Virus record (IMG/VR): IMGVR_UViG_3300006641_000245
Span: 1-20,264 of that record
Strand: one strand, 5' to 3'
Source of the DNA: a virus
DNA: 20,264 bases
Shown: piece by piece, positions 1,800-18,600 of the stretch
Layout: every line of letters begins with the position of its first letter
Position numbering within the stretch: position 1 is the first letter of the stretch
The notes under the pieces: generated by a model
What the model saw: only the letters and a program-made list of their open reading frames with translations
The model's database searches: none
What the model was told of the DNA's origin: nothing
Position numbers and translations under genes: made by a program

Positions 1800-2201
1800 A
1801 TGCAACTGACCAAACAGCAGTTTATTGACCGGTTCACCCACCCCGAGTTCACGAGCATCCTGCAAACAGGTAAGACGGATGTTGATATCGAGGGGTGGCT
1901 GTTCCGGTTTAATAACGCCGACAATCCGATTGACACCTACGATCCTCGGACGATTCAGGGTGTGGAGTCTTTCGTTCTCAAAGGATTGTTGACCGAGCAA
2001 CGCGCTCAGGAGATCCTCGGACTCTCGTGGAACGGTTGGCATGTCGGGGAGATGGTGCGAATCCTCCCGCCGTTCGACGTTTCGTTCCCGGATGTGTATC
2101 CGATTCAAGGTTTTGAGCCGGAGTTTTCTACGATTCTCGTAGCGGATACGGGGTTTAACGAGCAGTTTGTGGAGAAGGCCAATGGCAATAACAACGGTTG
2201 A
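1800..2201 (+). CDS. Phage hypothetical protein, structural block
   Basis: The product is 133 residues: an amphipathic N-terminal part (LTKQQFIDRFTHPEFTSIL), a middle stretch (IEGWLFRFNNADNPIDTYDPR), a helical segment (GLLTEQRAQEIL) and a Tyr/Phe/Pro-rich end (LPPFDVSFPDVYPIQGFEPEF). No Cys, no membrane segment, no recognised enzyme motif. It starts 1 nt after the previous stop. Its last 20 nt overlap the start of the next gene, which has its own ribosome site inside this frame. I do not recognise the family; neighbours suggest a virion or assembly role. Confidence 0.65.
   Translation: MQLTKQQFIDRFTHPEFTSILQTGKTDVDIEGWLFRFNNADNPIDTYDPRTIQGVESFVLKGLLTEQRAQEILGLSWNGWHVGEMVRILPPFDVSFPDVYPIQGFEPEFSTILVADTGFNEQFVEKANGNNNG
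2171..2174 (+). promoter_or_regulatory. Shine-Dalgarno GGAG deciding the start at 2182
   Basis: GGAG (within GGAGAAGG) sits 7 nt before ATG 2182. Initiation there yields an N-terminus beginning MAITT, matching the downstream paralogues MAITTY (2994) and MAITS (3803). This supports 2182 over any longer reading. Confidence 0.6.
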
Positions 2202-2991
2202 TGGGGTTATTGCCGGGTTTAAGCCGCCACAATTCATCTGGAAAGAGGCATCGGGCGCTCTTGTCGCCGGTCGCTCTTATACCCCGTTTTATGCCGCCGG
2301 TATTCCTTCAGCCGCCGTTGCTCCGACTCCGGGCATTTCTGGTGCGGCTCTGACTTCCTATGCCGGTCAGATCCCGTTCACAAACCCCAGCGCGGGCCAG
2401 AACACTTACCTTGCACGCTTTGTAGCGTTCCCTACGAACCAAGGCGGCTCAATCACCCTTGCTGATCGTTTGTGGCATAACAGCGGTATTACGATCACTT
2501 CGACCGCCGCTCAGACCGTCAATAGCGTGACTTTCCCGGCGCGGGATAATCTTGGCTCAACGAACGGCGAAGGCGTGTTTTTGGGCGTTGAGGTTTCAAC
2601 AGCGACGGGCGCTGGTACGCCGACGATCACGGTCAGCTACACAAATAGCGATAACACCTCTGGTCGCACCGCAACCAACATTTACGCCACCAGTGCAACA
2701 TCCGCAATCGGCACGTTTTATCCGCTGGGACTGCAATCTGGTGATAAAGGTGTTCGCTCAATTCAGTCGATTACGCTGAGCGCCACTTGGACTAGCGGGA
2801 CAATCCATTTGGTTGCTTACCGTCCTCTGGTAACGATTACTTCTACTGTGGCGGGAACCTGTAATGTTGTCGATGCACTCACCAGCGGGCTGGTGAGAAT
2901 GTACGACAATACGGTGCCATTTTTGATTTTGGTTCCGTCTGCGACTACTTCTACCCTAATAACAGGAACATTAACTGTTACTCAGGGGTAA
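2182..2991 (+). CDS. Tandem paralogous virion protein, copy 1
   Basis: The product is 269 residues, rich in Thr, Ser and Gly with no Lys-rich or membrane part. Landmarks shared in order with the two following genes are: N-terminal MAITT; IPFTNPSAGQNTYLARF; QTVNSVTFPARDNLGS; GEGVFLGVEVS; YTNSDNTSGR; GLQSGDKGVRSIQS; LVAYRPLVTI; MYDNTVPFLIL; and a terminal TVTQG. These define one large beta-rich protein family present three times side by side. This copy is GC-rich (a sampled line, 2341-2400, is about 65%), unlike copy 2. It overlaps the upstream gene by 20 nt. The role is unknown; a capsid decoration or appendage subunit is a reasonable inference from size, composition and context. Confidence 0.8.
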   Translation: MAITTVDGVIAGFKPPQFIWKEASGALVAGRSYTPFYAAGIPSAAVAPTPGISGAALTSYAGQIPFTNPSAGQNTYLARFVAFPTNQGGSITLADRLWHNSGITITSTAAQTVNSVTFPARDNLGSTNGEGVFLGVEVSTATGAGTPTITVSYTNSDNTSGRTATNIYATSATSAIGTFYPLGLQSGDKGVRSIQSITLSATWTSGTIHLVAYRPLVTITSTVAGTCNVVDALTSGLVRMYDNTVPFLILVPSATTSTLITGTLTVTQG

Positions 2992-2993
2992 CC

Positions 2994-3800
2994 GTGGCTA
3001 TTACCACCTATGCTGGGATTTATACAGGGGCTGTCCAGCAGCTGCAATTTTCAAAAATAGTTACCATTGGGTCATCCGCAAGTGATCCAACACTGACATT
3101 TTTCTGGAGCGGAATACCCAGTGCCGGAGGCGCTGGGGCGAGTCTATCTGGTAATACTCGCGATAACACATCATCTGGCGCGATACCGTTTAGAAATGCA
3201 AGTAGCGGCCAGAATAATTATCTATCTCGTTTTGACCACGCATCTTCAGCTCCAAGTACAGGAAAGTCGGTATTTATTGTCGATATTCTTTGGATAACTT
3301 CAGCAGTAAGCCAAGTAACAACAACGCAAACAATTAACTCTGTAACTTTTCCATCAAGGGATATTGACGGCTCTACCGCTGGGCGTGGTGTATATATCGC
3401 CATGTTTCATTCGACAGGCTATGCTTCTTCAAACGCATACACTGCCACAATAACCTATACAAACTCCGCTAATACGGGCAGCAGGGTAGGCACGGTGTCT
3501 CGCACGGGCGGTCTTGCTAATCGTTGGGTACCATTTGGCTTGGCAGAAGGTGATGAAGGCGTCCGGTCCGTACAAGACTTTACTTTTTCTGCCGTCCCCG
3601 GCACCTCGGGTGCAACAGTTTTGCTGGCCTATAGACCAATCGCGCTGCTTTCGTCAATACTTACCACGGGCGGTGTGCCGATTTCTGATACAGCCATGAC
3701 TCTCGCCCTGCCGCAATTGTATGACGGCACCTGTTTGACAATTATCAATATGGCTGGCGGCAATGAGTCATATGGTACGTATACGATAGCTCAGGGGTAG
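2994..3800 (+). CDS. Tandem paralogous virion protein, copy 2 (GTG start, low GC)
   Basis: The product is 268 residues from GTG 2994, two nt after the previous stop; the start gives MAITTYAG, matching the family N-terminus. Shared landmarks are IPFRNASSGQNNYLSRF, QTINSVTFPSRDIDGS, GRGVYIAMF, YTNSANTGSR, GLAEGDEGVRSVQD, LLAYRPIALL, LPQLYDGTCL and a terminal TIAQG. Conservation is strongest in the GQN-YL, RD-GS and GVRS-Q blocks, with diverged loops between. Sampled lines 3241-3360 have about 37-40% GC, far below copy 1, which points to separate acquisition or long independent evolution, not a fresh duplication. No catalytic motif is seen. Presumed virion component. Confidence 0.8.
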   Translation: MAITTYAGIYTGAVQQLQFSKIVTIGSSASDPTLTFFWSGIPSAGGAGASLSGNTRDNTSSGAIPFRNASSGQNNYLSRFDHASSAPSTGKSVFIVDILWITSAVSQVTTTQTINSVTFPSRDIDGSTAGRGVYIAMFHSTGYASSNAYTATITYTNSANTGSRVGTVSRTGGLANRWVPFGLAEGDEGVRSVQDFTFSAVPGTSGATVLLAYRPIALLSSILTTGGVPISDTAMTLALPQLYDGTCLTIINMAGGNESYGTYTIAQG

Positions 3801-3802
3801 TC

Positions 3803-4573
3803 ATGGCTATTACGAGTATAGTCGGCATACAAACAGCGGCGAAACAATCTTTTGTCATTACCGCTACTGGCAATGCAAGTGGCCTTGACAGTCCGCGCAA
3901 TAATTGGACTTCAAACAATCTTGTGCCAGCTAACGTAACTCGTTTCTCGCCGGATAACACGAATGGTTTGCAGTTTAAGAACCCTATTGCTGGGCAGAAC
4001 ACGTATTTATCTGATACCAATATCTATGGCGTCAGTACGTCTCCGTATTATACGCTTATAGTAGATGTTATCTGGGGTGTGGTTGTCACTAACACCACTA
4101 CGCTGCAAACTCTGTCGTCTCCGCTTATGGGTAACCGTGATATCAATGGCACAACCCGTGGAGACGGAGTGTATTTGATACTGGTTAACGGTACGGGTAA
4201 CTTAGGTGGCGGGACTTGTTTTTTGACGGTGACTTATACAAGTTCTGACGGCAACACTGGTCGTATTGGGTTGTCAGGTAATGCTGGCAACTTTCAAGGC
4301 GGCAGGACTACGTTTATCAGCCTTGCTAATGGCGATAAAGGAGTTCAGTCTGTACAGTCTGCCCAATGGTCAGCATTGCCCGGTGGCGGTCTGAATCTAT
4401 ATGCCTATAGGCCGATTGCGATTATTCCGGGGGGAATGGCACGAAGCGACGGGACCGCCGCTGGAGATGCGCTTAATCTGGCACTCCCTCAGATTTACGA
4501 CAACTCCTGCATCCAGTTTTTGTATGGCAACGGGGCGGGCACCCGTGGGCAAATAAGTTTGATTCAGGGTTAA
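3803..4573 (+). CDS. Tandem paralogous virion protein, copy 3
   Basis: The product is 256 residues starting MAITSIVGIQ, 2 nt after copy 2. It retains the family blocks LQFKNPIAGQNTYLSDT, QTLSSPLMGNRDINGT, GDGVYLILVN, YTSSDGNTGR, LANGDKGVQSVQS, LYAYRPIAII, LPQIYDNSCI and a terminal SLIQG. It is closest to copy 2 at the C-terminus (LPQ-YD). It differs in a shorter middle and a Gly/Asn-rich loop (LSGNAGNFQGGR). One sampled line (4081-4140) has about 52% GC, between copies 1 and 2. Probable beta-rich virion protein; receptor or glycan binding would be speculation. Confidence 0.8.
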   Translation: MAITSIVGIQTAAKQSFVITATGNASGLDSPRNNWTSNNLVPANVTRFSPDNTNGLQFKNPIAGQNTYLSDTNIYGVSTSPYYTLIVDVIWGVVVTNTTTLQTLSSPLMGNRDINGTTRGDGVYLILVNGTGNLGGGTCFLTVTYTSSDGNTGRIGLSGNAGNFQGGRTTFISLANGDKGVQSVQSAQWSALPGGGLNLYAYRPIAIIPGGMARSDGTAAGDALNLALPQIYDNSCIQFLYGNGAGTRGQISLIQG

Positions 4574-4574
4574 C

Positions 4575-4979
4575 ATGGCAAACGAACTCTACCCCAAGTG
4601 GAAGGAGCAACTGCTCCAGTTCACGGCCAATAACAACCTGTCAGCCGGTACGGTGAAGGTCGCCCTCATCGACACTGGGGCTTACCAGTACAACGCCTCT
4701 CACCAGTATTGGTCGTCTGCATCTGCTGGAGCGATTGGTACGCCTCAGACCCTGACCAGCAAGACGTTCACCGATGGGGTGTTTGATGCTGCTGACGTTA
4801 CGTTTTCGGCGGTGACAGGCGATACCATCGAGGCTATCATCATCTACATTGATACGGGTACAGCCAGTACCTCACCGCTGGTGGCCTACATGGACACCGG
4901 GATTACGGGTTTCCCACTGACACCCACGGGTGTGAGCGTAACGATTAACTGGAGCCCAAGCGGCATCTTCCAACTCTGA
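4575..4979 (+). CDS. Phage virion protein, MANELYPKWKE type
   Basis: The product is 134 residues with a short helical start (ELYPKWKEQLLQF), followed by beta-type segments: LSAGTVKVALIDTGAY, the TLTSKTFTDGVFDAADVTFS block, IEAIIIYIDTGTASTSP, LVAYMDTGI and TINWSPSGIFQL. This type of protein recurs in many tailed-phage genomes as an unnamed structural protein (recall of the general type, not a database result). It shares the strand order of the genes at 1376 and 12463 (VKVAL or FKVYL near the start, PLxAxxD near the end). It starts 1 nt after the preceding stop. No enzymatic or membrane signature is present. Confidence 0.75.
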   Translation: MANELYPKWKEQLLQFTANNNLSAGTVKVALIDTGAYQYNASHQYWSSASAGAIGTPQTLTSKTFTDGVFDAADVTFSAVTGDTIEAIIIYIDTGTASTSPLVAYMDTGITGFPLTPTGVSVTINWSPSGIFQL

Positions 4980-5511: not shown

Positions 5512-7086
5512 ATGGTCACCGCTGTCCTCCCGCGCTTCTTTGTAGACAAGCAAACTAGTCAACCGCAAGGAAGTCGGGTTATAGACTGGTCAAACCCGAT
5601 AACTTGTGGGTTAATTGGGGCGTTCTTGCCTGAATCGCCAATCAATTTTGTTGATGGCGAGCAAATGTATCAGGATTGGCTTCCGCCAACTCAAAGCGTA
5701 AAAGCGCAATCAGAAGGCAAAGTTCTTAAAAATGGTATCTACACATACCAACCTTCAAGCGTAACTTTCCCCTACGGATATAAGTTTGACCTGACTCAGG
5801 GCGCAGCCCTGCTCGTTGCTTCTCAATCGTCTGCCCAAAACTCAAACATAGGCATTGGTCGTGCCTCCGCATCTGGCACTCAATATTGGGGCATTGGCCT
5901 GCATGGTGGATCTTTCAATGGTGCGTATGGAATTTGGGGGACTTTTAACTTTACTCCCGGCTCTAGTGGAGTAAGCACGTTACAAAAACGAACCGTCATC
6001 ATTAACGCCGATGGATCGACGGCGACTTTGTATATGGACGGAGGGGTGGTAAGCAGCGGCGCTTACACCATGCCTGCTTATGATTCTAGCGTTAGAAATA
6101 GGTGTTTTGCTTTTGGTAGCACCGCTGCGGGCCAAACCTCTAACACCGCCACAATCGAACCCAGCCTCGGGCTTGTTTGGAATAGACCTTTAACCGAGAA
6201 TGAAGTTGCTCTGTTAACAGCAAATCCTTGGCAAGTCTTTCGTAGACCGCAGCGGGCATACACGCCATTATTCGACTCCACCCCCTCCCCCACATCCCGG
6301 ACCTTCTTCGTCCCGCGCAAAAAGGTAATGACCTCGCAGCCGCAGGGACCTGCGGCAGCAATTGATTGGGGAAACCCGATTACGCAAGGCCTCGCGTCTG
6401 CTTATATACCAACTGCGGCTCAGTACCGGTCATTCGACCTCGCTACAAACACACGAGACCTCACCACAAATGCAGATTTTTTGCCCCCGTATAGGCCGGG
6501 GGCCGCAGGGTTTGCGCTTGACTCTACGGATACTAACTACGTTTGGAGTATTCAGTTTGATCCTGTCGCCCTGCGTGGTTATCCAAAAACCGGCTACGCT
6601 GCGGTGACGGTTTTCTCGTTGTTTGAGAGCAGGACCACCAATCAGTTCGGTGTAATCTACGGCGGCGGTCAAGACGGAACTTATTATGGCCGCTTAGTTG
6701 TTAGTAGTGACGCAACGATTGCGTTTATTGCAGCATCTAACAACGCCACGCTCCATCCTAAGTCGCCCCTCGTCGCTGACACGCTTTACGCTGCTACAGG
6801 TATTCAAAGCTTTACCCGGAGTTATAGGGCGCTTTATGTAAACGGACATTTAGCCGAAACCAGAACGGAGAGTATTAACAATCTCAACACAGGTTTTATA
6901 GCTGGATCTATCTATAACGTCCAACTTCGCCGTATCAAACTTTATTGCGGGTACGTCTGGGTTCGTGAGTTGTCCGCAGCAGAAATCAAGTCGCTCTCCG
7001 ACAACCCGTGGCAAATCTTCAAGCAGGATGGGTTGTCTCTTCGGGTTGCTGAAGACGGCAAGGTGTACGCTCCGTTCATGTCATGA
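5512..7086 (+). CDS. Double LamG/concanavalin-like virion protein
   Basis: The product is 524 residues made of two homologous halves. Each half opens with FFV...TSQPQG...IDWxNPIT-GL (residues about 9-35 and 265-297). Each closes with a VW-R-L(T/S)-x-E segment followed by a NPWQ(V/I)F box (residues about 218-240 and 483-500). The middle of each half carries lectin-like beta-strand pairs such as TATLYMDGGVVSSG in half 1 and YRALYVNGHLAETR in half 2. This is the usual layout of LamG/concanavalin A-like jelly rolls in phage adhesins, where the NPWQ box ends the domain. Carbohydrate binding on the virion surface is therefore likely, though the ligand is unknown. Its stop overlaps the next start as ATGA. 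The first half is relatively AT-rich (5641-5700 is about 43% GC). Confidence 0.8.
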   Translation: MVTAVLPRFFVDKQTSQPQGSRVIDWSNPITCGLIGAFLPESPINFVDGEQMYQDWLPPTQSVKAQSEGKVLKNGIYTYQPSSVTFPYGYKFDLTQGAALLVASQSSAQNSNIGIGRASASGTQYWGIGLHGGSFNGAYGIWGTFNFTPGSSGVSTLQKRTVIINADGSTATLYMDGGVVSSGAYTMPAYDSSVRNRCFAFGSTAAGQTSNTATIEPSLGLVWNRPLTENEVALLTANPWQVFRRPQRAYTPLFDSTPSPTSRTFFVPRKKVMTSQPQGPAAAIDWGNPITQGLASAYIPTAAQYRSFDLATNTRDLTTNADFLPPYRPGAAGFALDSTDTNYVWSIQFDPVALRGYPKTGYAAVTVFSLFESRTTNQFGVIYGGGQDGTYYGRLVVSSDATIAFIAASNNATLHPKSPLVADTLYAATGIQSFTRSYRALYVNGHLAETRTESINNLNTGFIAGSIYNVQLRRIKLYCGYVWVRELSAAEIKSLSDNPWQIFKQDGLSLRVAEDGKVYAPFMS

Positions 7087-8114
7087 GCAACAGATTCTTC
7101 AATCCGGCGGTTGGCAAGGCCACAGGGCAAGGCTACGGCGCGTCCCCGCTGGATTCGATCTGGGTCAAACAGACCACAGACATCCTGTATCCGAAGATAC
7201 AGGCAGGAGACGAAGACACCGCTGAACAGACCGTATATACCACTTGGTATCTCGGGCCGCCCTCTGCTGGTGTAACCCTAACCGCTGATGCGGGTACGTT
7301 CTCGATTACTGGTCGGGCAGCGGATCTTCTTCGGTCTCGCCTCCTTTCCGCTGACGCCGGTTCGTATTCGATCAGCGGTCAAGCTGCTGACTTTGCCAAG
7401 ACCGTCGCGCTCTCGGCTGATGCTGGGACGTACACAATCAACGGTCAGGCGGCGGATCTCACCGCCGTTCGTATACTTAGCGCAGACGCTGGTTCGTACC
7501 TTATCTCCGGGCAGGCAGCCACTCTAGCTCGATCACTGTATCTAGACGCGAACTCTGGTTCGTATGCAATCACCGGTGAGGCAGCGACTCTCGATTATGA
7601 GCAGGCGCGTACCATTGATGCCAACGCCGGGGTGTATTCGATCGGCGGTCAAAACGCAGACCTGATCCGCACTCACGTATTCACCGCTGAAGTTGGCTCC
7701 TACAACCTCTCCGGTCAGAACGCTGATCTGGTTGTATCCAAGGTTCTTCTGGCCGATGCTGGTGCGTACAGCATCTCTGGTCAAGCTGCTGATTTGATCG
7801 TAGCCCGGTCGGTAGACGCGCAGTCCGGCACGTACAATATTGGGGGTCAGGCTGCTGACCTGATTGCCTCCAGAATACTGTCCGCAGATGCTGGTAGTTA
7901 TGGTATAAGCGGTCAGGACGCGGTTCTGGCTCACGGGCGCTATTTGCTCGGAGAGTCTGGTTCGTACCTGATCAACGGCCAGCCCGCTACGCTTACTAGC
8001 ATTGTGCTGTTCCCGAATCCTGCTGACGTTCGCGCAGGCGTTGTTTATGGGCCAGATGGGATTTATACTGGGACTCTGATAGTCAGTACGCCCATTTACC
8101 TTTTCGATGACTGA
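7083..8114 (+). CDS. 22-residue-repeat phage fibre-like protein
   Basis: The product is 343 residues in three parts. Residues 1-65 are a unique N-terminus (MSNRFFNPAVGKATGQGYG, then DSIWVKQTTDILYPKIQ), possibly the virion anchor. Residues 66-309 hold eleven near-perfect repeats of the form LSADAGSYSISGQAADL plus a variable pentad; all are 22 residues except the fifth (24). Residues 310-343 carry PADVRAGVVYGPDGIYTGTL, a short Gly-rich C-terminal module that recurs in many phage appendage proteins. Regular repeats with conserved Gly, Tyr and Gln at fixed spacing suggest a beta-solenoid or stacked beta-hairpin shaft. The start codon overlaps the previous stop (ATGA). Function is inferred as a fibre or decoration; no enzyme motif is present. 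Confidence 0.8.
   Translation: MSNRFFNPAVGKATGQGYGASPLDSIWVKQTTDILYPKIQAGDEDTAEQTVYTTWYLGPPSAGVTLTADAGTFSITGRAADLLRSRLLSADAGSYSISGQAADFAKTVALSADAGTYTINGQAADLTAVRILSADAGSYLISGQAATLARSLYLDANSGSYAITGEAATLDYEQARTIDANAGVYSIGGQNADLIRTHVFTAEVGSYNLSGQNADLVVSKVLLADAGAYSISGQAADLIVARSVDAQSGTYNIGGQAADLIASRILSADAGSYGISGQDAVLAHGRYLLGESGSYLINGQPATLTSIVLFPNPADVRAGVVYGPDGIYTGTLIVSTPIYLFDD
7278..8009 (+). repeat. Eleven tandem ~66-bp coding repeats
   Basis: Eleven coding units of 66 bp (the fifth is 72 bp) encode residues 66-309. Invariant or nearly invariant positions are a Gly after the D/E-A/S pair, then an aromatic (Tyr or Phe) two residues on, I or L two further, Gly-(Q/R/E) after that, and A-x-L. Codons differ between units, so the array is old or maintained by protein selection and was not freshly amplified. 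Confidence 0.9.
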
Positions 8115-11503: not shown

Positions 11504-11769
11504 TGGCTAAGTTCAGCATGAAGGTCAAGGGCAAGGAAATCGGCCCTGCGCCGGTTTATGCGCCTCCGCACAATATGCAGGGCGCTGCTGGTGTTGACAT
11601 CAAAAACTCTGGCTATGATGGCGGCAACCGCTATCGTGCAAATGATGTGAACATGAGCGTTGGCAGCATCAATCGCAACGACTACGCGCAGCCCAAGACT
11701 TCCGGGATCAAGACTCGGGGTAACGGCGCGGCCACCAAGGGCGTTACTGCTCGGGGACCGATGGCGTGA
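11503..11769 (+). CDS. Gly/Asn-rich phage protein with TRGNGAATKG tail
   Basis: The product is 88 residues from ATG 11503 in a TGATG overlap. It has a Lys-rich start (MAKFSMKVKGKEIGPAPVYA), then a Gly/Asn/Asp-rich low-complexity middle (NSGYDGGNRYRANDVN), and a C-terminus SGIKTRGNGAATKGVTARG-PMA. The KTRG-GAATKG-ARGPMA ending occurs at the C-terminus of small proteins in many phages and may be a binding tag. No secondary structure or enzyme motif is evident; much of it is likely disordered. It ends in a GTGA overlap with the adaptor gene, so it is probably coupled to that gene. Confidence 0.7.
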   Translation: MAKFSMKVKGKEIGPAPVYAPPHNMQGAAGVDIKNSGYDGGNRYRANDVNMSVGSINRNDYAQPKTSGIKTRGNGAATKGVTARGPMA

Positions 11770-12461
11770 ACTACAGCCAGCTTTCTGCTGCAATCCAAAG
11801 CTATACCGAGAATCAGTTCCCGGCGACTACGCTCGCCGATGGCTCTACGGTTTCAGCGGATACACAGATTGCTCGCTTCGTTCAGCAGGCCGAGCAACGC
11901 ATCTATAACGCGGTGCAGTTTCCGTCGCTGCGTAAGAATGTTACCGGCACCACGACCATCAACAACAAGTACTTATCTTGTCCGACCGATTTTCTGGCCG
12001 TGTACTCCATGGCCGTGATTGCGGCGGATGGTACTTATGAGTACCTGCTGAATAAAGATGTCAACTACATTCGGCAGGCATATCCGTCTCCTACGGACTA
12101 CGGCAAACCCCGGTTTTACGCTCTGTTTGGGCCGACGGTTACGGGCGCTACGATTACTAACGAGTTGTCGTTCCTGCTTGGCCCCACGCCTGATGTGGCG
12201 TATAGCGTAGAGTTGCATTACTACTATTACCCCGAGTCGATCACTACCGCCAATACGACTTGGCTCGGTGATAACTTTGATTCGGTGCTGCTGTATGGCT
12301 CGCTGGTCGAGGCGTATACTTTCATGAAGGGTGAAGCTGATTTGGTCGCCCTCTATGATGGCAAGTACAAAGAAGCCCTTGCTCTTGCCAAGCGCCTTGG
12401 AGACGGAATGGAGCGTCAGGATGCGTACCGTTCCGGGCAGTACCGTCAGCCGGTGACTTGA
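11766..12461 (+). CDS. SU10-type head-tail adaptor protein (GTG start)
   Basis: The product is 231 residues from GTG 11766. It has an N-terminal helical part (NYSQLSAAIQSYTENQFP, then IARFVQQAEQRIYNAVQFPS), a central beta section (CPTDFLAVYSMAVIAADG, NYIRQAYPSP, RFYALFGPTV, FLLGPTPDVAYSVELHYYY), and C-terminal helices (LLYGSLVEAYTFMKGE, YKEALALAKRLGDG). This is the layout of the adaptor family first defined in phage SU10, which sits between portal and nozzle. Assignment is by pattern, not a search. A role in joining the tail to the head is therefore likely. It follows the connector and zinc-ribbon genes, consistent with a neck cluster. Confidence 0.75.
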   Translation: MNYSQLSAAIQSYTENQFPATTLADGSTVSADTQIARFVQQAEQRIYNAVQFPSLRKNVTGTTTINNKYLSCPTDFLAVYSMAVIAADGTYEYLLNKDVNYIRQAYPSPTDYGKPRFYALFGPTVTGATITNELSFLLGPTPDVAYSVELHYYYYPESITTANTTWLGDNFDSVLLYGSLVEAYTFMKGEADLVALYDGKYKEALALAKRLGDGMERQDAYRSGQYRQPVT

Positions 12462-12462
12462 T

Positions 12463-12894
12463 ATGCCGATTCAGCAGGGCGCGACCAACACGTTCAAAAC
12501 GGGCCTGCCTTCAGGTACGTTTAACTTTTCGTCGGATACCTTCAAGATCGCTTTGTATAGCAGCACGGCGGATCTTGGTCCGACCACTTCCGCGTATACG
12601 ACATCTGGCGAGATTACTGGCTCCGGGTATACTGCCGGAGGCGAAACGCTTACAGTGTCTGTGACCCCGACGACTGGAAATGATCCGTTCAATACGGTGG
12701 CGTATCTGTCGTTTGCCAATGCAACGTGGAGTCCCGCGACGTTTACCGCTCGCGGCGCTCTGATTTACAAGTCCGGTGGGGGTGATCCCACAGTGTGTGT
12801 TCTGGATTTTGGTGGCGACAAGACATGCACTACCTCATTTGAGGTGCAGTTCCCCGCCGCTAACAGCACCAGCGCAATCATCAGGATTGCATAG
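12463..12894 (+). CDS. Phage virion protein, FNFSS/GYTAGGE module (paralogue)
   Basis: The product is 143 residues: NTFKTGLPSGTFNFSSDTFK, IALYSSTADLGP, SGEITGSGYTAGGETLTV, FTARGALIYKSGGGDP and TSFEVQFPAANSTSAIIRIA. Blocks and order match the gene at 1376 (VHNFSSNVFKVYL, EITGGNGYTAGGE, ESFTVKFSGTDPGAIF). The two genes are 11 kb apart in one operon-like block, so they probably derive from an old duplication and serve similar structural slots. It starts 1 nt after the adaptor gene's stop. A fibre or decoration role is an inference. Confidence 0.75.
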   Translation: MPIQQGATNTFKTGLPSGTFNFSSDTFKIALYSSTADLGPTTSAYTTSGEITGSGYTAGGETLTVSVTPTTGNDPFNTVAYLSFANATWSPATFTARGALIYKSGGGDPTVCVLDFGGDKTCTTSFEVQFPAANSTSAIIRIA

Positions 12895-12903
12895 GAGTAG
12901 ATC

Positions 12904-13488
12904 ATGGGCGTCGAAAGAGCCAAAACTTCAGACCTGATTGGCGGCGGACTGGTTGCCAACAGCATGCCGAGCGAATCGCTCAAAGCCACTGGCAAGTACA
13001 TCGTTGAGTGTTTTGATAAAGACGGCAATCCCAAGTGGACTGCCGAGACGCCCAACCTCGTTGTGAACGTCGGGCTTCAGTACATGGCTGGCTCGGCTCT
13101 TGTTGCTACCACTCAGATCACCACTTGGTATGTCGGGCTGTATGGTGCGGGCGCTTCTAACACGCCGGCCGCTACCGATACTATGGCGGCAGGGGGCCAT
13201 AACGGCTGGACTGAAAACACCAACTATTCGGAAGCTACGCGACCGGTCGCAAACTTCGCTGCCGCGACCGCTGCTAACCCGTCGGTTGTTACCAACACCT
13301 CTAATAAGGCGGTGTTTACCATGAATGCCACCACCACGATCGGCGGTGCGTTTTTGGTTAGCAACAACACCAAGGGTGGGACGACCGGTACGCTGTTTTC
13401 GGCTGCTGACTTCCAGTCTCCGGGTGACCGCGCCGTTGTGAACGGCGATATTCTGAACGTCACTTATCAGTTTAGCCTGTCCGCCTAA
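12904..13488 (+). CDS. Phage virion/tail-associated protein, KATGKYIVECFDKDG type
   Basis: The product is 194 residues. After a short N-terminal stretch it reads SLKATGKYIVECFDKDGNPK, then LVVNVGLQYMAGSALV, ITTWYVGLYGAG, ATDTMAAGGHNGWTENTNYS, KAVFTMNATTTIGGAFLVS and NTKGGTTGTLFSAADF. This ordered set is a recurrent tailed-phage protein (K-x-TGK-ECFD-DG, WY-GL, GWTE, GGAFL, KGGTTGTL), usually left as a hypothetical structural or tail protein. It is preceded by AGGAG and starts 9 nt after the previous gene. The WYVGL and GAFL strands loosely resemble those of the 4575 family. No enzyme motif is present. Confidence 0.75.
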   Translation: MGVERAKTSDLIGGGLVANSMPSESLKATGKYIVECFDKDGNPKWTAETPNLVVNVGLQYMAGSALVATTQITTWYVGLYGAGASNTPAATDTMAAGGHNGWTENTNYSEATRPVANFAAATAANPSVVTNTSNKAVFTMNATTTIGGAFLVSNNTKGGTTGTLFSAADFQSPGDRAVVNGDILNVTYQFSLSA

Positions 13489-13498
13489 GGATGGATAA

Positions 13499-16381
13499 GT
13501 GTCCAGTGGCTGGGGTTCCGGCACTTGGGGCCAATCTAACTGGGGTTACTCTGGGTATTCATCCTCAGTAACAGAGTCAGCCACTGGCTCTGATTCCATA
13601 ACGGGATCATCCCTTGCAGGTCTAATCACAGAAGCAGCTACAGGCGCGGAAACTGTAGCCGCTATACGGCAACTAAATCCGGTAGTTGCCGAGTCGGCAT
13701 CCATAGCCGACAGCAATCTTGGTGAGCGCAATTACTTTAGCACTGAGGCCGAGTCCGCCTCCGGTGCGGATTCTATTAGCGCACAGGCCAGATTCTTCGC
13801 TACTGAGGCCGAGACAGCAACCGCCTCGGACGAAATTAGCGTTCGACAGCAGTTCGATAGGTCGGACGTTGAGACCGCGACGATCGCAGACCTTCCGTTT
13901 GCCAGCCAGTCTGTGCAGAGCGCCACGGCTGAAACATCGTCAGTAACTGACACACCCACCAACATAGCGACCGTTTATTCCGCGCAAGCGGAAACGGCCA
14001 GCCTGTCCGACTCTATTTCTTCCGATCGTATTCTCACCGAAGGCGGTTGGGGGTCAGGAACGTGGGGTCAGGGCGCTTGGAGCGGAATTGTCTTTGCCCG
14101 GTCGATCGTAGAGGCGGCGACGGCGGCAGACCAAGTATCTGTCTCGGTTCCCGCAGTTAATGGGCAAGTAGATGAATCCGCCGTAGGCGCAGACTCGGTA
14201 ACTCCGAGACTCACAACTGTTAATGGTTCGGTTGTTGAATCGGCTTCCGTTGCCGACTCGAACGCATCCGTATTTGCGCCTCGCTCTAGTGTTGAAGAGT
14301 CTGCGTCGATTGCCGACTCTGTTTCCTCGGACCGCATTCTTACTGAGGGCGGCTGGGGGTCTGGAGAGTGGGGTCAAGGACCTTGGAACGGCATTGTTTT
14401 CTCCCGGAACATTGTTGAGGCCGCATCTGTTGTTGACGAATACTCGGCATCCATACCGAATGTAAACGGTACGGTTATTGAGGCGGCGTCTGTTGCGGAC
14501 GAGGTAACGCCCAAGCTCACCACTGTTAACGGATCTACAGAAGATTCCGCATTTGTTACTGACGCCAATTCTGCGATTGGCACGTTTAACCATTCCGTGG
14601 TCGAAGCGGCATTAGTTGCTGATTCGATTGATTCGTCTATTACCTACACAGAAGGCGGATGGGGTTCTGGTGCGTGGGGCCAAGGGCCTTGGAACGGAAT
14701 CGTATTTAACAGGAGTATCGCGGAATCTGGGTCGGTTGCTGATTCGATCTCCGCCGTTCTACCTCTGGTCAACGGGATCATTGAGGACGCGGCGGCCGCT
14801 TCTGATTCGGTCTCTGCCACGCTTCCGACGGTCAATGGGCTGATCGAGGAGGGCGCGACTGGCGCTGACGTTATATTCGCCGCTCGGGCAAACGACGCAG
14901 AAAGCCTGATCGCCGAAACCGCAACCGGGACTGATGAGCCGTCAGCCACCATTACGCTAACTGAGGGCGGATGGGGTTCCGGCGAGTGGGGTCAGGGTGC
15001 GTGGAGCGGGATTGTCTTTAGTAGGACTATCGCTGAAAGCGCGACTGCTACCGACGAAGTTATCCCCCGGCTGGCTTTGGTTAACGGGATTATTGAAGAG
15101 CCTGCGACGGCCACCGATGCCCCCAGTGCGACCCTGCCGCTGTCATTCAGTGTTGCTGATGAAGTTGCCACCGCGACGGACAGCGTTACCCCCGAACTGC
15201 CGGTCGTTAATGGGTTGGCCGATGAGCCGACTCAAGCCACAGACGAGCCCTCGGCAACTATCACTCTGACTGAGGGCGGATGGGGATCTGGGGAATGGGG
15301 TCAGGGTCCGTGGAATGGGATCGTTTTTGCCCGGTCGATTGGCGAAACAGCTACCGCTACGGACGAAGTTACTCCCAAGCTGGTGCTTGTTAACGGGATT
15401 ATTGAAGAACCCGCAACTGCAACGGACGAAGTTTCAGCGGCCCTGCCGGTGTCTTTCAATGTGGCCCCGGACTCGGCCATTGCGTCTGACTCAATTAGCA
15501 CTGAGTTCCCGGTTCAGAACGCTACCGCCCCTGAGCCAGCCCTTGCGGTAGATACTCCGTCGCTTCAGGTTATCTATACCGAGGGTGGCTGGGGATCGGG
15601 AACTTGGGGTCAAGGGCCATGGAACGGGGTGGTGTTTGCCCGCTCCATAGAAGAGGCCACCTCAGTTGCCGACGAAGCTATCGGTACGCCTGCATATCCT
15701 CGCTCGATCGAGGAGGCGCTTAATGCTTCGGAGATCGTGTCCGCTCAAGTTGTATTCGCGGTTCTTATCTCTGAAGGCGTTGCGATAGCCGACTCCGTAC
15801 TGGGGGCTCAGTATTACGAATCGGATGTTCACGAAGATGTTACTGGCGCGGACTTCGTTCTTGGTGGTCGTGCTTATTTCCGGGAAACTGAAAACGCTGT
15901 TTCTGTATCGGATCTGCTTGAGGGCGATGCGCGGCTTGTTCAGGTTATCCAAGAAGCTGCGACTGCATCTGATGCTGTATCTAGCATCGTTACGCAACTC
16001 TGGTACAACATTGAAGACGGTCAAGAGCCTGATTGGCAGACCACAAATAATGAACAAACGGGGTCTTGGGTAACAGTTGATGACAATCAGTCTGCACAGT
16101 GGCAGAATGCTGGTACGTCGCAAACCGCCGATTGGGTTGCGGTTGATGTTACTCAGGCTGTAAGCTGGCAAAATGTTGGCACATCACAAACGGCCACTTG
16201 GTCAGAAGTCAGTGACTCGCAGGCTGCGGGCTGGCAATCTATCCCGACTGAGCAGGCTGGAAGCTGGCCTACCATCGAAACCGCGCAAGATGTAAATTGG
16301 CAAGGAGTTGCTACCAATCAGTCACCAGACTGGGACGATATTGATAGCGCTCAAGATTTTGACGAACCAGTAATTGTCTAG
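13499..16381 (+). CDS. 960-residue repeat virion protein: GW boxes, AD-repeats, W-Q ladder
   Basis: The product is 960 residues from GTG 13499 (AAGGATGG upstream). Regions: a variant Gly-Trp box at residues 4-16 (GWGSGTWGQSNW); then a long array of degenerate E-S/T-A-x3-AD units; then five consecutive super-repeats of 102-104 residues, each led by a GGWGSGxWGQGxW(S/N)G box (14042, 14348, 14654, 14966, 15275), with a sixth box at 15584. Each super-repeat carries about four AD units with VNG links. The last ~110 residues hold ten strict 11-residue W-x6-Q units. It has no Cys, no membrane helix and is acidic (Glu/Asp-rich). Between virion and tail-fibre genes, it is probably a long fibre or tether. 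The family is unknown to me. Confidence 0.75.
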   Translation: MSSGWGSGTWGQSNWGYSGYSSSVTESATGSDSITGSSLAGLITEAATGAETVAAIRQLNPVVAESASIADSNLGERNYFSTEAESASGADSISAQARFFATEAETATASDEISVRQQFDRSDVETATIADLPFASQSVQSATAETSSVTDTPTNIATVYSAQAETASLSDSISSDRILTEGGWGSGTWGQGAWSGIVFARSIVEAATAADQVSVSVPAVNGQVDESAVGADSVTPRLTTVNGSVVESASVADSNASVFAPRSSVEESASIADSVSSDRILTEGGWGSGEWGQGPWNGIVFSRNIVEAASVVDEYSASIPNVNGTVIEAASVADEVTPKLTTVNGSTEDSAFVTDANSAIGTFNHSVVEAALVADSIDSSITYTEGGWGSGAWGQGPWNGIVFNRSIAESGSVADSISAVLPLVNGIIEDAAAASDSVSATLPTVNGLIEEGATGADVIFAARANDAESLIAETATGTDEPSATITLTEGGWGSGEWGQGAWSGIVFSRTIAESATATDEVIPRLALVNGIIEEPATATDAPSATLPLSFSVADEVATATDSVTPELPVVNGLADEPTQATDEPSATITLTEGGWGSGEWGQGPWNGIVFARSIGETATATDEVTPKLVLVNGIIEEPATATDEVSAALPVSFNVAPDSAIASDSISTEFPVQNATAPEPALAVDTPSLQVIYTEGGWGSGTWGQGPWNGVVFARSIEEATSVADEAIGTPAYPRSIEEALNASEIVSAQVVFAVLISEGVAIADSVLGAQYYESDVHEDVTGADFVLGGRAYFRETENAVSVSDLLEGDARLVQVIQEAATASDAVSSIVTQLWYNIEDGQEPDWQTTNNEQTGSWVTVDDNQSAQWQNAGTSQTADWVAVDVTQAVSWQNVGTSQTATWSEVSDSQAAGWQSIPTEQAGSWPTIETAQDVNWQGVATNQSPDWDDIDSAQDFDEPVIV
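13693..13711 (+). other. Small inverted repeat inside the AD-repeat coding region
   Basis: GTCGGC at 13693-13698 and GCCGAC at 13706-13711 pair over 6 bp with a 7-nt loop. Similar arms recur in this gene, for example 13751-13773 and 14296-14320. They come from the ESA...ADS protein motif, whose codons are partly complementary. Regulatory meaning is unproven. Confidence 0.4.
14042..15583 (+). repeat. Five ~103-residue super-repeats headed by Gly-Trp boxes
   Basis: Starts of the Gly-Trp boxes (14042, 14348, 14654, 14966, 15275, 15584) are 306, 306, 312, 309 and 309 nt apart. Each unit has the box, then about four E-x-A-x3-AD segments. Synonymous codons vary between units. The units are coding and stay in frame; no mobile-element features are present. 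Confidence 0.85.
16034..16363 (+). repeat. Ten-unit 11-residue W-x6-Q ladder
   Basis: Tryptophan codons lie every 33 nt from 16034 to 16331, ten in all. In every unit a Gln occupies W+7 with no exception. Most units read W-x5-(S/T/N/E/A)-Q-(S/T/A/D)-x-x. The spacing is exactly 11 residues throughout. Confidence 0.9.
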
Positions 16382-16390
16382 GAGCCGTTC

Positions 16391-18262
16391 ATGGCTGTTA
16401 CGTATACCTCTCTCCTTGGCCTTGCAAAACCCGTTACAGGTACGGAGGCGGGTACGTGGGGCGATGTGGTCAATGATTACTTGACCACCTATCTTGATGC
16501 AGCGGTTGCCGGTGCCCAGACAATCAGCGGCACTCAGACGGCGGTTACTTTGACGGTGGCAAACGGCACGGCGCTAGTTCAGGCCGCTGCTACATCCGCA
16601 GGTTCGTCGCAGTATCAGATCATCAACTGCACTGGAAGCCCGGCGTCTACTCTGGTAATCACTGCGCCTGCTTCCAGTAAGGTGTATCTGGTTATCAACG
16701 CCACCGCCACCAACCAGTCGGTTACGGTTCGGGGTGCAGGCCCAACAACCGGTATTACGATCCCCGCGCTTACCCGGTCGCTGGTTGCATGGAACGGCTC
16801 GGACTACATCCTGATCGCCTCCAACCGTATCACCGACCTGACGGGAACTTTGGCTACTGGTAACGGCGGTACGGGTCTGACGACTTTTACTGCGGCCAAC
16901 AACGCCATTTACTCCACCTCTTCTTCGGCGCTGACCGCCGGTACACTGCCTGTGGCAGCGGGGGGCACAGGAGCTACGACTCTGACCGGCGTGGTCAAGG
17001 CCAGCGGAACCTCGGCGTTCACCGCCAGCAACGTCAGCCTTTCCTCGGAAGTTACTGGAACCCTCCCGGTCGGCAACGGCGGCACGGGTGCCACGACTCT
17101 CACCGCCAACAACGTCATTCTCGGCAATGGCACTTCGGCTGTTCAGGTGGTTGCCCCCGGCACTTCGGGTAACGTGCTGACCAGTAACGGTACGACTTGG
17201 GTTAGCTCATCCGCAGCGCCCAGCCCGAATAAAATCATCAACGGGTCGATGCAGATAGCACAACGCGGAACTACGTTTACAAGCGTTGCTAATCTAGCGT
17301 ATACATTGGATAGATGGTTTTATGGGTCTGCCAGCACAACAGGCGTTCTGGACATCACAAGGAATACAGCAGATTACCCGAGCAATCAGGGATTTTTGAG
17401 CAGCTTACGCGCCACCGTTACGACCGCTGATTCAGCCGTTGCCGCTGGTGATGTGGCTAGAATTGTTCAGAGTATCGAGGGGGTCAGCATTACTGATCTA
17501 ATCAATAGAACCTTCACTCTGTCTTTCTGGGTACGATCTGCTAAAACTGGCACGCATTGCGTCAGTTTTACTGGCCTTAGTGCCGCAGCAGCATTTAATA
17601 GTTATGTTGCCGAGTATACGGTTTCCGCCGCCAACACTTGGGAGCAAAAGACCATTACGGTAACCGATGGCTTGCCTAGCTCTTTTGCTTGGCGCACTGA
17701 CATTGGTGTTGCCGGGATGTCCGTGAACTTTACTCTTATGGCCGGAAGCTCATCGCAAGCAACGGTCAATACGTGGACAACTGGGTCACCATCAAGGTAT
17801 GTCACTTCTGGCGGATCTGGAACGAACTTACTCGATACCGTTGGGAACATTTTCGCCATTACGGGCGTGCAGCTTTCCGTCGGCTCTACGGCATCGTTTG
17901 AGTTTTTACCTTTCGGCGAGATATTGTCGCAGTGCCAGCGGTATTACTCTAAGAGCTATAGCTATGATGTGAATCCTGCCACTGTAACCAGTGGCGGTCA
18001 GATGCGTATACCGGTCGCGTATTCACTCGGCTTTGGTGCTTTTAACATAGACCTCCCTGTGGAAAGGTGCTTTGTACCTAGCATTACAGTTTATTCTCCG
18101 GCAACCGGAGCCTCAGGCGTAGTGCGTAGCGTAGGTTCTGGTACAGATGTTGCAGTTAGTGGCACTAATACTGGCACTCGTATATTGAATATCTTTGTAT
18201 CCTCTGGGATGCAAAACGATGACTTTGCATTAGCCCATTATGTAGCTTCTTCGGAGATTTGA
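16391..18262 (+). CDS. Phage tail fibre protein
   Basis: The product is 623 residues. Residues 1-150 are a beta-rich N-terminal part (GLAKPVTGTEAGTWGDVVND, then YQIINCTGSPASTLVITAPA). About residues 152-235 carry three tail-fibre repeats (TGTLATGNGGTGLTTF, AGTLPVAAGGTGATTLTG, TGTLPVGNGGTGATTLTA). From residue ~281 a C-terminal adhesin half begins at NKIINGSMQIAQRGTTF and contains YTLDRWFYG, FTLSFWVRSAKTG and ITGVQLSVGSTASFEFLPFG before CQRYYSKSY; a terminal region of about 100 residues follows. This is a standard phage fibre ending and a probable host-receptor binder. GC falls from about 62-65% to 43-47% at the stem/head junction. GGAG at 16381-16384 precedes the ATG. Confidence 0.85.
   Translation: MAVTYTSLLGLAKPVTGTEAGTWGDVVNDYLTTYLDAAVAGAQTISGTQTAVTLTVANGTALVQAAATSAGSSQYQIINCTGSPASTLVITAPASSKVYLVINATATNQSVTVRGAGPTTGITIPALTRSLVAWNGSDYILIASNRITDLTGTLATGNGGTGLTTFTAANNAIYSTSSSALTAGTLPVAAGGTGATTLTGVVKASGTSAFTASNVSLSSEVTGTLPVGNGGTGATTLTANNVILGNGTSAVQVVAPGTSGNVLTSNGTTWVSSSAAPSPNKIINGSMQIAQRGTTFTSVANLAYTLDRWFYGSASTTGVLDITRNTADYPSNQGFLSSLRATVTTADSAVAAGDVARIVQSIEGVSITDLINRTFTLSFWVRSAKTGTHCVSFTGLSAAAAFNSYVAEYTVSAANTWEQKTITVTDGLPSSFAWRTDIGVAGMSVNFTLMAGSSSQATVNTWTTGSPSRYVTSGGSGTNLLDTVGNIFAITGVQLSVGSTASFEFLPFGEILSQCQRYYSKSYSYDVNPATVTSGGQMRIPVAYSLGFGAFNIDLPVERCFVPSITVYSPATGASGVVRSVGSGTDVAVSGTNTGTRILNIFVSSGMQNDDFALAHYVASSEI
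18253..18256 (+). promoter_or_regulatory. Shine-Dalgarno GGAG deciding the start at 18265
   Basis: GGAG lies 8 nt before GTG 18265 but only 2 nt before the alternative TTG 18259, which would overlap the tail fibre stop. Spacing and the family-like MYQLT opening favour 18265. Confidence 0.45.
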
Positions 18263-18264
18263 TT

Positions 18265-18600
18265 GTGTACCAGCTAACTCAGTCATCAACAGTAATCAGA
18301 TTGTCCGATAACGTCTTTATTCCGTCGGACCCCAAGAACAGGGATTGGCAGGCTTATCAAGACTGGCTGGCCGAGGGCAACACGCCAGACCCTGTTCCTG
18401 AGTCAGTTCTTGCGGGAGAAGTCCGATCGAAAAGAGATTCCCTGCTCATAGCATCTGACAATCGCGCCCTCGCAGATCGTTGGGCCGCCATGACAACTCA
18501 GCAGCAGCAAGACTGGGCAACGTATCGTCAGCAGTTGCGGGATGTGCCTGAGCAGCCCGGATTCCCTGAGAATGTGACTTGGCCGGTTGCGCCCTCGTGA
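18265..18600 (+). CDS. Probable tail-fibre assembly chaperone-like protein
   Basis: The product is 111 residues from GTG 18265 (TTG 18259 would add 2). The N-terminal part reads VIRLSDNVFIPSDPKNRDWQ and AYQDWLAEGNTPDP, as in proteins next to phage tail fibres. The C-terminal part reads RSKRDSLLIASDNRALAD, then WATYRQQLRDVPEQPGFPEN and VTWPVAPS, matching the phage tail assembly chaperone-like domain (the WATYRQ-LRD-PGFP-W-P pattern, Phage_tail_APC type as I recall). It follows the tail fibre directly, as expected for a folding or assembly helper. Whether it acts on this fibre is inferred. Confidence 0.75.
   Translation: MYQLTQSSTVIRLSDNVFIPSDPKNRDWQAYQDWLAEGNTPDPVPESVLAGEVRSKRDSLLIASDNRALADRWAAMTTQQQQDWATYRQQLRDVPEQPGFPENVTWPVAPS

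Follow-up and report, generated by a model that had tools for sequence, protein, structure and literature searches.

A Gly-Trp box repeat protein with modules of counted length, putatively a tail appendage, in an environmental phage

What is the role of a long repeat protein encoded between the adaptor and tail fibre genes of a phage? The question is raised by a single open reading frame (ORF) in the window, i.e., the whole 20,264-nucleotide stretch analyzed here (IMG/VR virus record IMGVR_UViG_3300006641_000245, positions 1 to 20,264). The reading favored here, with modest confidence, is that the protein is a tail appendage of the virion in which conserved Gly-Trp boxes would act as specific contact elements and the short modules between them as counted spacers, and that the array changes length by whole units. 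The box and module architecture, the selection acting on the box and the variation in unit number are read directly from the sequences, and the function is approached through the neighboring genes and by analogy.

The protein combines three elements (Table 1). Six boxes of the form GGWGSGxWGQGxW stand where a preliminary description of this DNA had placed them, at intervals of 306, 306, 312, 309 and 309 nucleotides, and the seventh, variant box reported at the N-terminus (GWGSGTWGQSNW) is also present. The boxes are separated by short repeats of about 20–21 residues with the consensus E-x-A-x3-(A/T)D. Four such segments per box, as had been proposed with the ending AD, are found in units 1–5, but six follow the sixth box and eight follow the N-terminal one. 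The span previously given for the super-repeat, to position 15583, takes in the five full units and stops one base short of the sixth box. The nesting of a small repeat within a large one is borne out, with modules of about 20 residues inside units of 102–104 residues (5 × 20.4–20.8) and peaks of protein self-match at lags 102/103 (0.24/0.22 against a background of 0.087) and again at 20/21. All 32 Trp residues of the protein fall either in the seven triplets, spaced 5+5, or in the C-terminal run spaced by 11 (residues 835–945). In residue shuffles the strict box, observed six times, was never obtained (2000 shuffles), and the loose box, observed seven times, occurred on average 0.015 times. 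The Asp-to-Asp distance across a box is 40 residues, or 2 × 20, so that a box is about one module long. At the DNA level no tandem repeat is detectable, and the pattern is thus maintained at the level of the protein only. Two relatives, L002 and L003, share both the start context and the length of the ORF.

The window protein is one member of a large family, defined in this analysis by its sequence features and widespread in environmental phages, whose members were drawn from IMG/VR. The family combines an N-terminal Trp-Gly box, an array of 20- or 22-residue modules and a C-terminal 11-residue Trp/Gln array, and all three are found in the window protein (a 5+5 Trp triplet, modules of about 20 residues and the Trp/Gln array). 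Two groups are distinguished by their modules, which are E-[TS]-A-x3-D in the group closer to the window and VTGVxxTxxxGxV, with a dominant 22-residue lag, in a marine group. Trp positions were compared in 58 distinct proteins of the closer group and 71 of the marine group, all with an N-terminal box. The spacing within that box is 5+5 in 129 of 129 homologs, and the C-terminal spacing in the closer group is 11 in 198 of 198 cases. Of the Trp in the two sets, 0 of 430 and 1 of 373, respectively, lie anywhere other than in the box or the last 75 residues. Core lengths of closer-group proteins with one box are likewise restricted, to 117, 177, 217/218, 257, 297 and 317 residues. These fit 17+20n with n = 5, 8, 10, 12, 14 and 15 (chance about 2e-4 even at a tolerance of ±1), and the C-terminal tails measure about 29, 40 or 62 residues, in steps of about 11. 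Such strict rules (Trp at 5+5, Trp at 11, modules of 20 or 22) suggest a design of counted length and make the family readily recognizable.

Members with a single box are the most common. Those of the closer group (L144–L216, e.g., L175:1545-2324) resemble the window protein in their GGWGSGTWGQ box, E-[TS]-A-x3-D modules of 20 residues and 11-residue Trp/Gln array, but they are only 179–384 residues long, carry one N-terminal box and lack the super-repeat of about 103 residues. Repetition of the box is not peculiar to the clade of the window, since the marine group repeatedly shows proteins with two to four boxes at different intervals. The regular super-repeat was found only in that clade (nine contigs) and is new within the family. 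Among named phages, relatives were located via neighboring genes: gp68 of HTVC027P and WJZ48131.1 of DSL-LC04 are hypothetical proteins with several Gly-Trp boxes and VTG-type or related modules, and WJZ48131.1 also shares the C-terminal Trp/Gln array. Both differ from the window protein in length (321–381 residues), in the sequence of the short repeat and in irregular box spacing with no regular super-repeat. A tblastn search against named phages gave no match, perhaps owing to BLAST's low-complexity filter, and neither a search of the genome collection for relatives nor a literature search by motif letters returned anything. The family is uncharacterized and, common as it is in environmental phages, without a match in the libraries searched (Pfam and PHROGs). 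Matches of relatives to Gpi16 and the Spt5 CTD were read as artefacts of repeat composition, and those of alignment A4 in the PDB, mostly designed helical repeats, as low-complexity matches. A curli-type repeat fiber, of the type seen in some pelagiphages, was also considered and rejected, as the Pfam scan gave no curlin match.

How old is the array, and what does selection maintain in it? In a tree of units, those from different phages cluster mostly by position rather than by phage, and comparison between units shows saturation at synonymous sites. The array therefore predates the split of these phages and has not been homogenized; concerted evolution of the units is ruled out by the same tree. 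The proportion of replacement differences (pN) is about 7-fold lower in the box (0.067) than elsewhere in the unit (0.46), while the proportion of synonymous differences (pS) is 0.75–0.78 in both, which indicates that the box is under strong purifying selection. The array as a whole evolves faster than its neighbors, since identity between the window and L002 is 71–73% in the array and 81–82% in the adjoining DNA.

The preliminary description had also suggested that the super-repeat offers a route for length change by in-frame recombination, and had proposed a comparison of repeat number among related phages. That number does vary. Six internal boxes are present in the window, in L001, which matches the window at 99.98% identity, and in L002 and L003. 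There are four in L006 and L007, two assemblies with 99.7% identity to each other, and eight in L005, or 5, 7 or 9 boxes in total with the N-terminal one. The end of L005 overlaps L009 by 483 identical bases, and the two contigs together would encode one chain of about 1164 residues. L002 and L006 are 97.9% identical to the left and 98.7% identical to the right of a replaced core, which measures about 997 nucleotides in L002 and about 381 in L006. The two differ by 615 nucleotides, or 205 residues, exactly two units. On its left side the exchange sets in gradually, a short distance past box two; on its right side it ends abruptly, at about residue 80 of both units, inside the E-x-A repeats. 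No close donor for the 381-nucleotide core was present among the fetched loci. Relatives with four, six and eight boxes and the exchange between L002 and L006 together support recombination in register as a means of changing length, but the suggestion is tempered by the age of the array and its lack of homogenization. These relatives form a natural length series. In the few lineages represented by the window, L001, L002, L003, L005 and L006, internal boxes come only in even numbers (4, 6 or 8).

The repeat protein is taken to be a tail appendage because of its gene neighborhood. An SU10-type adaptor gene lies upstream, and the genes for a tail fiber, a fiber assembly protein and an endolysin follow in that order (Table 1). 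The multi-box proteins of HTVC027P and DSL-LC04 are likewise encoded shortly after the adaptor.

Table 1. Coordinates in the window of the repeat protein, its parts and the adjacent tail genes
Feature	Position	Strand	Details
SU10-type adaptor (head-to-tail connector) gene	11766..12461	+	Pfam PF24175, E 8.6e-24
Shine-Dalgarno-like AAGGA	13487..13491	+	Seven bases 5' of GTG; predicted from consensus
Repeat-protein ORF	13499..16381	+	960 residues, GTG start
N-terminal variant box GWGSGTWGQSNW	13508..13543	+	Trp 5, 10, 15
Eight E-x-A-x3-D repeats of ~20 residues	13544..14041	+	Sequence reading
Unit 1, 102 residues	14042..14347	+	Box 14042-14080, then four short repeats
Unit 2, 102 residues	14348..14653	+	Box 14348-14386, then four short repeats
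Unit 3, 104 residues	14654..14965	+	Box 14654-14692, then four short repeats
Unit 4, 103 residues	14966..15274	+	Box 14966-15004, then four short repeats
Unit 5, 103 residues	15275..15583	+	Box 15275-15313, then four short repeats
Last (sixth) box and six short repeats	15584..16000	+	Box 15584-15622; beyond the span first described
C-terminal array	16001..16333	+	11 Trp at exact 11-residue spacing, Q-x3-W-x2-[VI]-x3; alignment A1
Tail fiber gene, candidate partner	16391..18262	+	phrog_4492, E 3.8e-51; directly downstream of repeat ORF
Tail fiber assembly gene	18259..18600	+	phrog_4912, E 1.5e-17

In the favored account, the ORF would encode a fiber-type appendage of a phage with a structural module of the short-tail type. 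A box with its four modules would have been duplicated long ago in the clade of the window, giving rise to six internal boxes, each of which may bind a partner in the tail as a specific, conserved contact element. The modules between them, apparently β-rich, would serve as spacers of counted length, and recombination in register would lengthen or shorten the array by entire units. Several points weigh against this account. The gene neighborhood is the sole ground for placing the protein in the virion, no family member has an assigned function or structure, and sequence searches of the protein against Pfam, PHROGs and the PDB gave no convincing match. AlphaFold2 produced no usable model of two neighboring units (predicted local distance difference test score, pLDDT, 41) or of the last box with the C-terminal tail (pLDDT 31). 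Purifying selection would be seen, too, on a box that was essential to the folding of its own chain.

Could the boxes instead be simple joints? A modular rod, which the preliminary description had suggested with a Trp-rich joint every 100 residues, and in which Gly-rich boxes would form flexible hinges between stiff segments of four modules, would suit their regular spacing, their Gly content and their one-module length, with the 40-residue Asp-to-Asp distance noted above. However, Gly would suffice for a hinge, whereas three Trp at fixed spacing are kept in every one of the 129 homologs, and a specific contact element is the likelier role because of this conserved triplet. The 7-fold deficit of replacement changes in the box also argues against a hinge, and most homologs have their only box at the extreme N-terminus, where there is little to join; the hinge is considered unlikely. 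Far less credible still is a neutral origin, in which slippage or recombination would have left the repeats behind and neither the box nor the copy number would have a function. Copy number does differ among relatives, but there are no tandem repeats in the DNA, box residues are conserved while synonymous sites are saturated, units hold their positions across phages, and lengths occur only in whole modules. Neutrality is thus disfavored both by the selection that acts on the box and by units that are specific to their positions.

A sharper form of the favored explanation is prompted by the nozzle of phage SU10, where three Trp on a loop of one chain hold a trimeric short tail fiber with quasi-threefold symmetry (PMC9509320). 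By analogy, each box could form, within a single chain, a dock for a trimeric tail fiber, its three Trp arranged with pseudo-threefold symmetry, one per fiber chain. On this view the window protein would serve as a scaffold offering seven docks, or more if the C-terminal array is counted, and box number would set the number of fibers carried. A docking role is suggested by the SU10 loop together with the box found in nozzle proteins of relatives (P22 gp10-like “stabilization” proteins, phrog_3287), in ten of which the GWGxxxWGxxxWG motif with 5+5 Trp is invariant. These are non-repeat tail hub proteins that have the box alone in common with the window protein, so that the same tail has the motif in two different proteins. 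In addition, the tail fiber gene is directly downstream of the repeat ORF, and a GTWG-x2-VN stretch near the N-terminus of the fiber is conserved in relatives. On the other hand, the SU10 loop (GPIWSDFQEITWDDPSIKELVW) has no sequence likeness to the box: its Trp are spaced by 8 and 10 rather than 5 and 5, it contains no Gly-Trp box, it resembles the 11-spaced C-terminal array more closely, and by none of the tests applied is it homologous. Homology of the nozzle box to the SU10 loop is likewise conjectural, because PDB homologs of the nozzle leave that stretch uncovered, and a PDB search with the nozzle box peptide gave chance antibody matches only. Docking is proposed by analogy and is regarded as a speculative possibility. 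Slightly more doubtful is the full form of this idea, a linear scaffold in which every box would hold one trimeric fiber by pseudo-threefold stacking and gain or loss of a unit of about 103 residues would alter fiber number or spacing. If it is true, the tail nozzle would share the same docking motif. The Trp box common to both proteins offers a direct and testable idea of the way in which abundant aquatic phages attach their tail appendages. In the nozzle proteins (L003:11807-13909 and nine relatives, alignment A5) the box lies near a stretch with weak likeness to the endosialidase β-barrel.

Other genes in the window were noted in passing. A second repeat protein (7083–8114), with the pattern (L)SADAGSYxISGQAADL..., has the 22-residue lag of the marine box family and lacks the box. 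Three tandem paralogous genes at 2167–4573 encode proteins of 256–274 residues that are 37–39% identical (blastp); the one searched matched no Pfam or PHROGs family. Three members of phrog_644, which has no assigned function, lie within 20 kb (1376–1798, 4575–4979, and 12463–12894). At 5512–7086 lies another gene that probably encodes an adhesin, its product having a concanavalin A-like lectin domain (PF13385).
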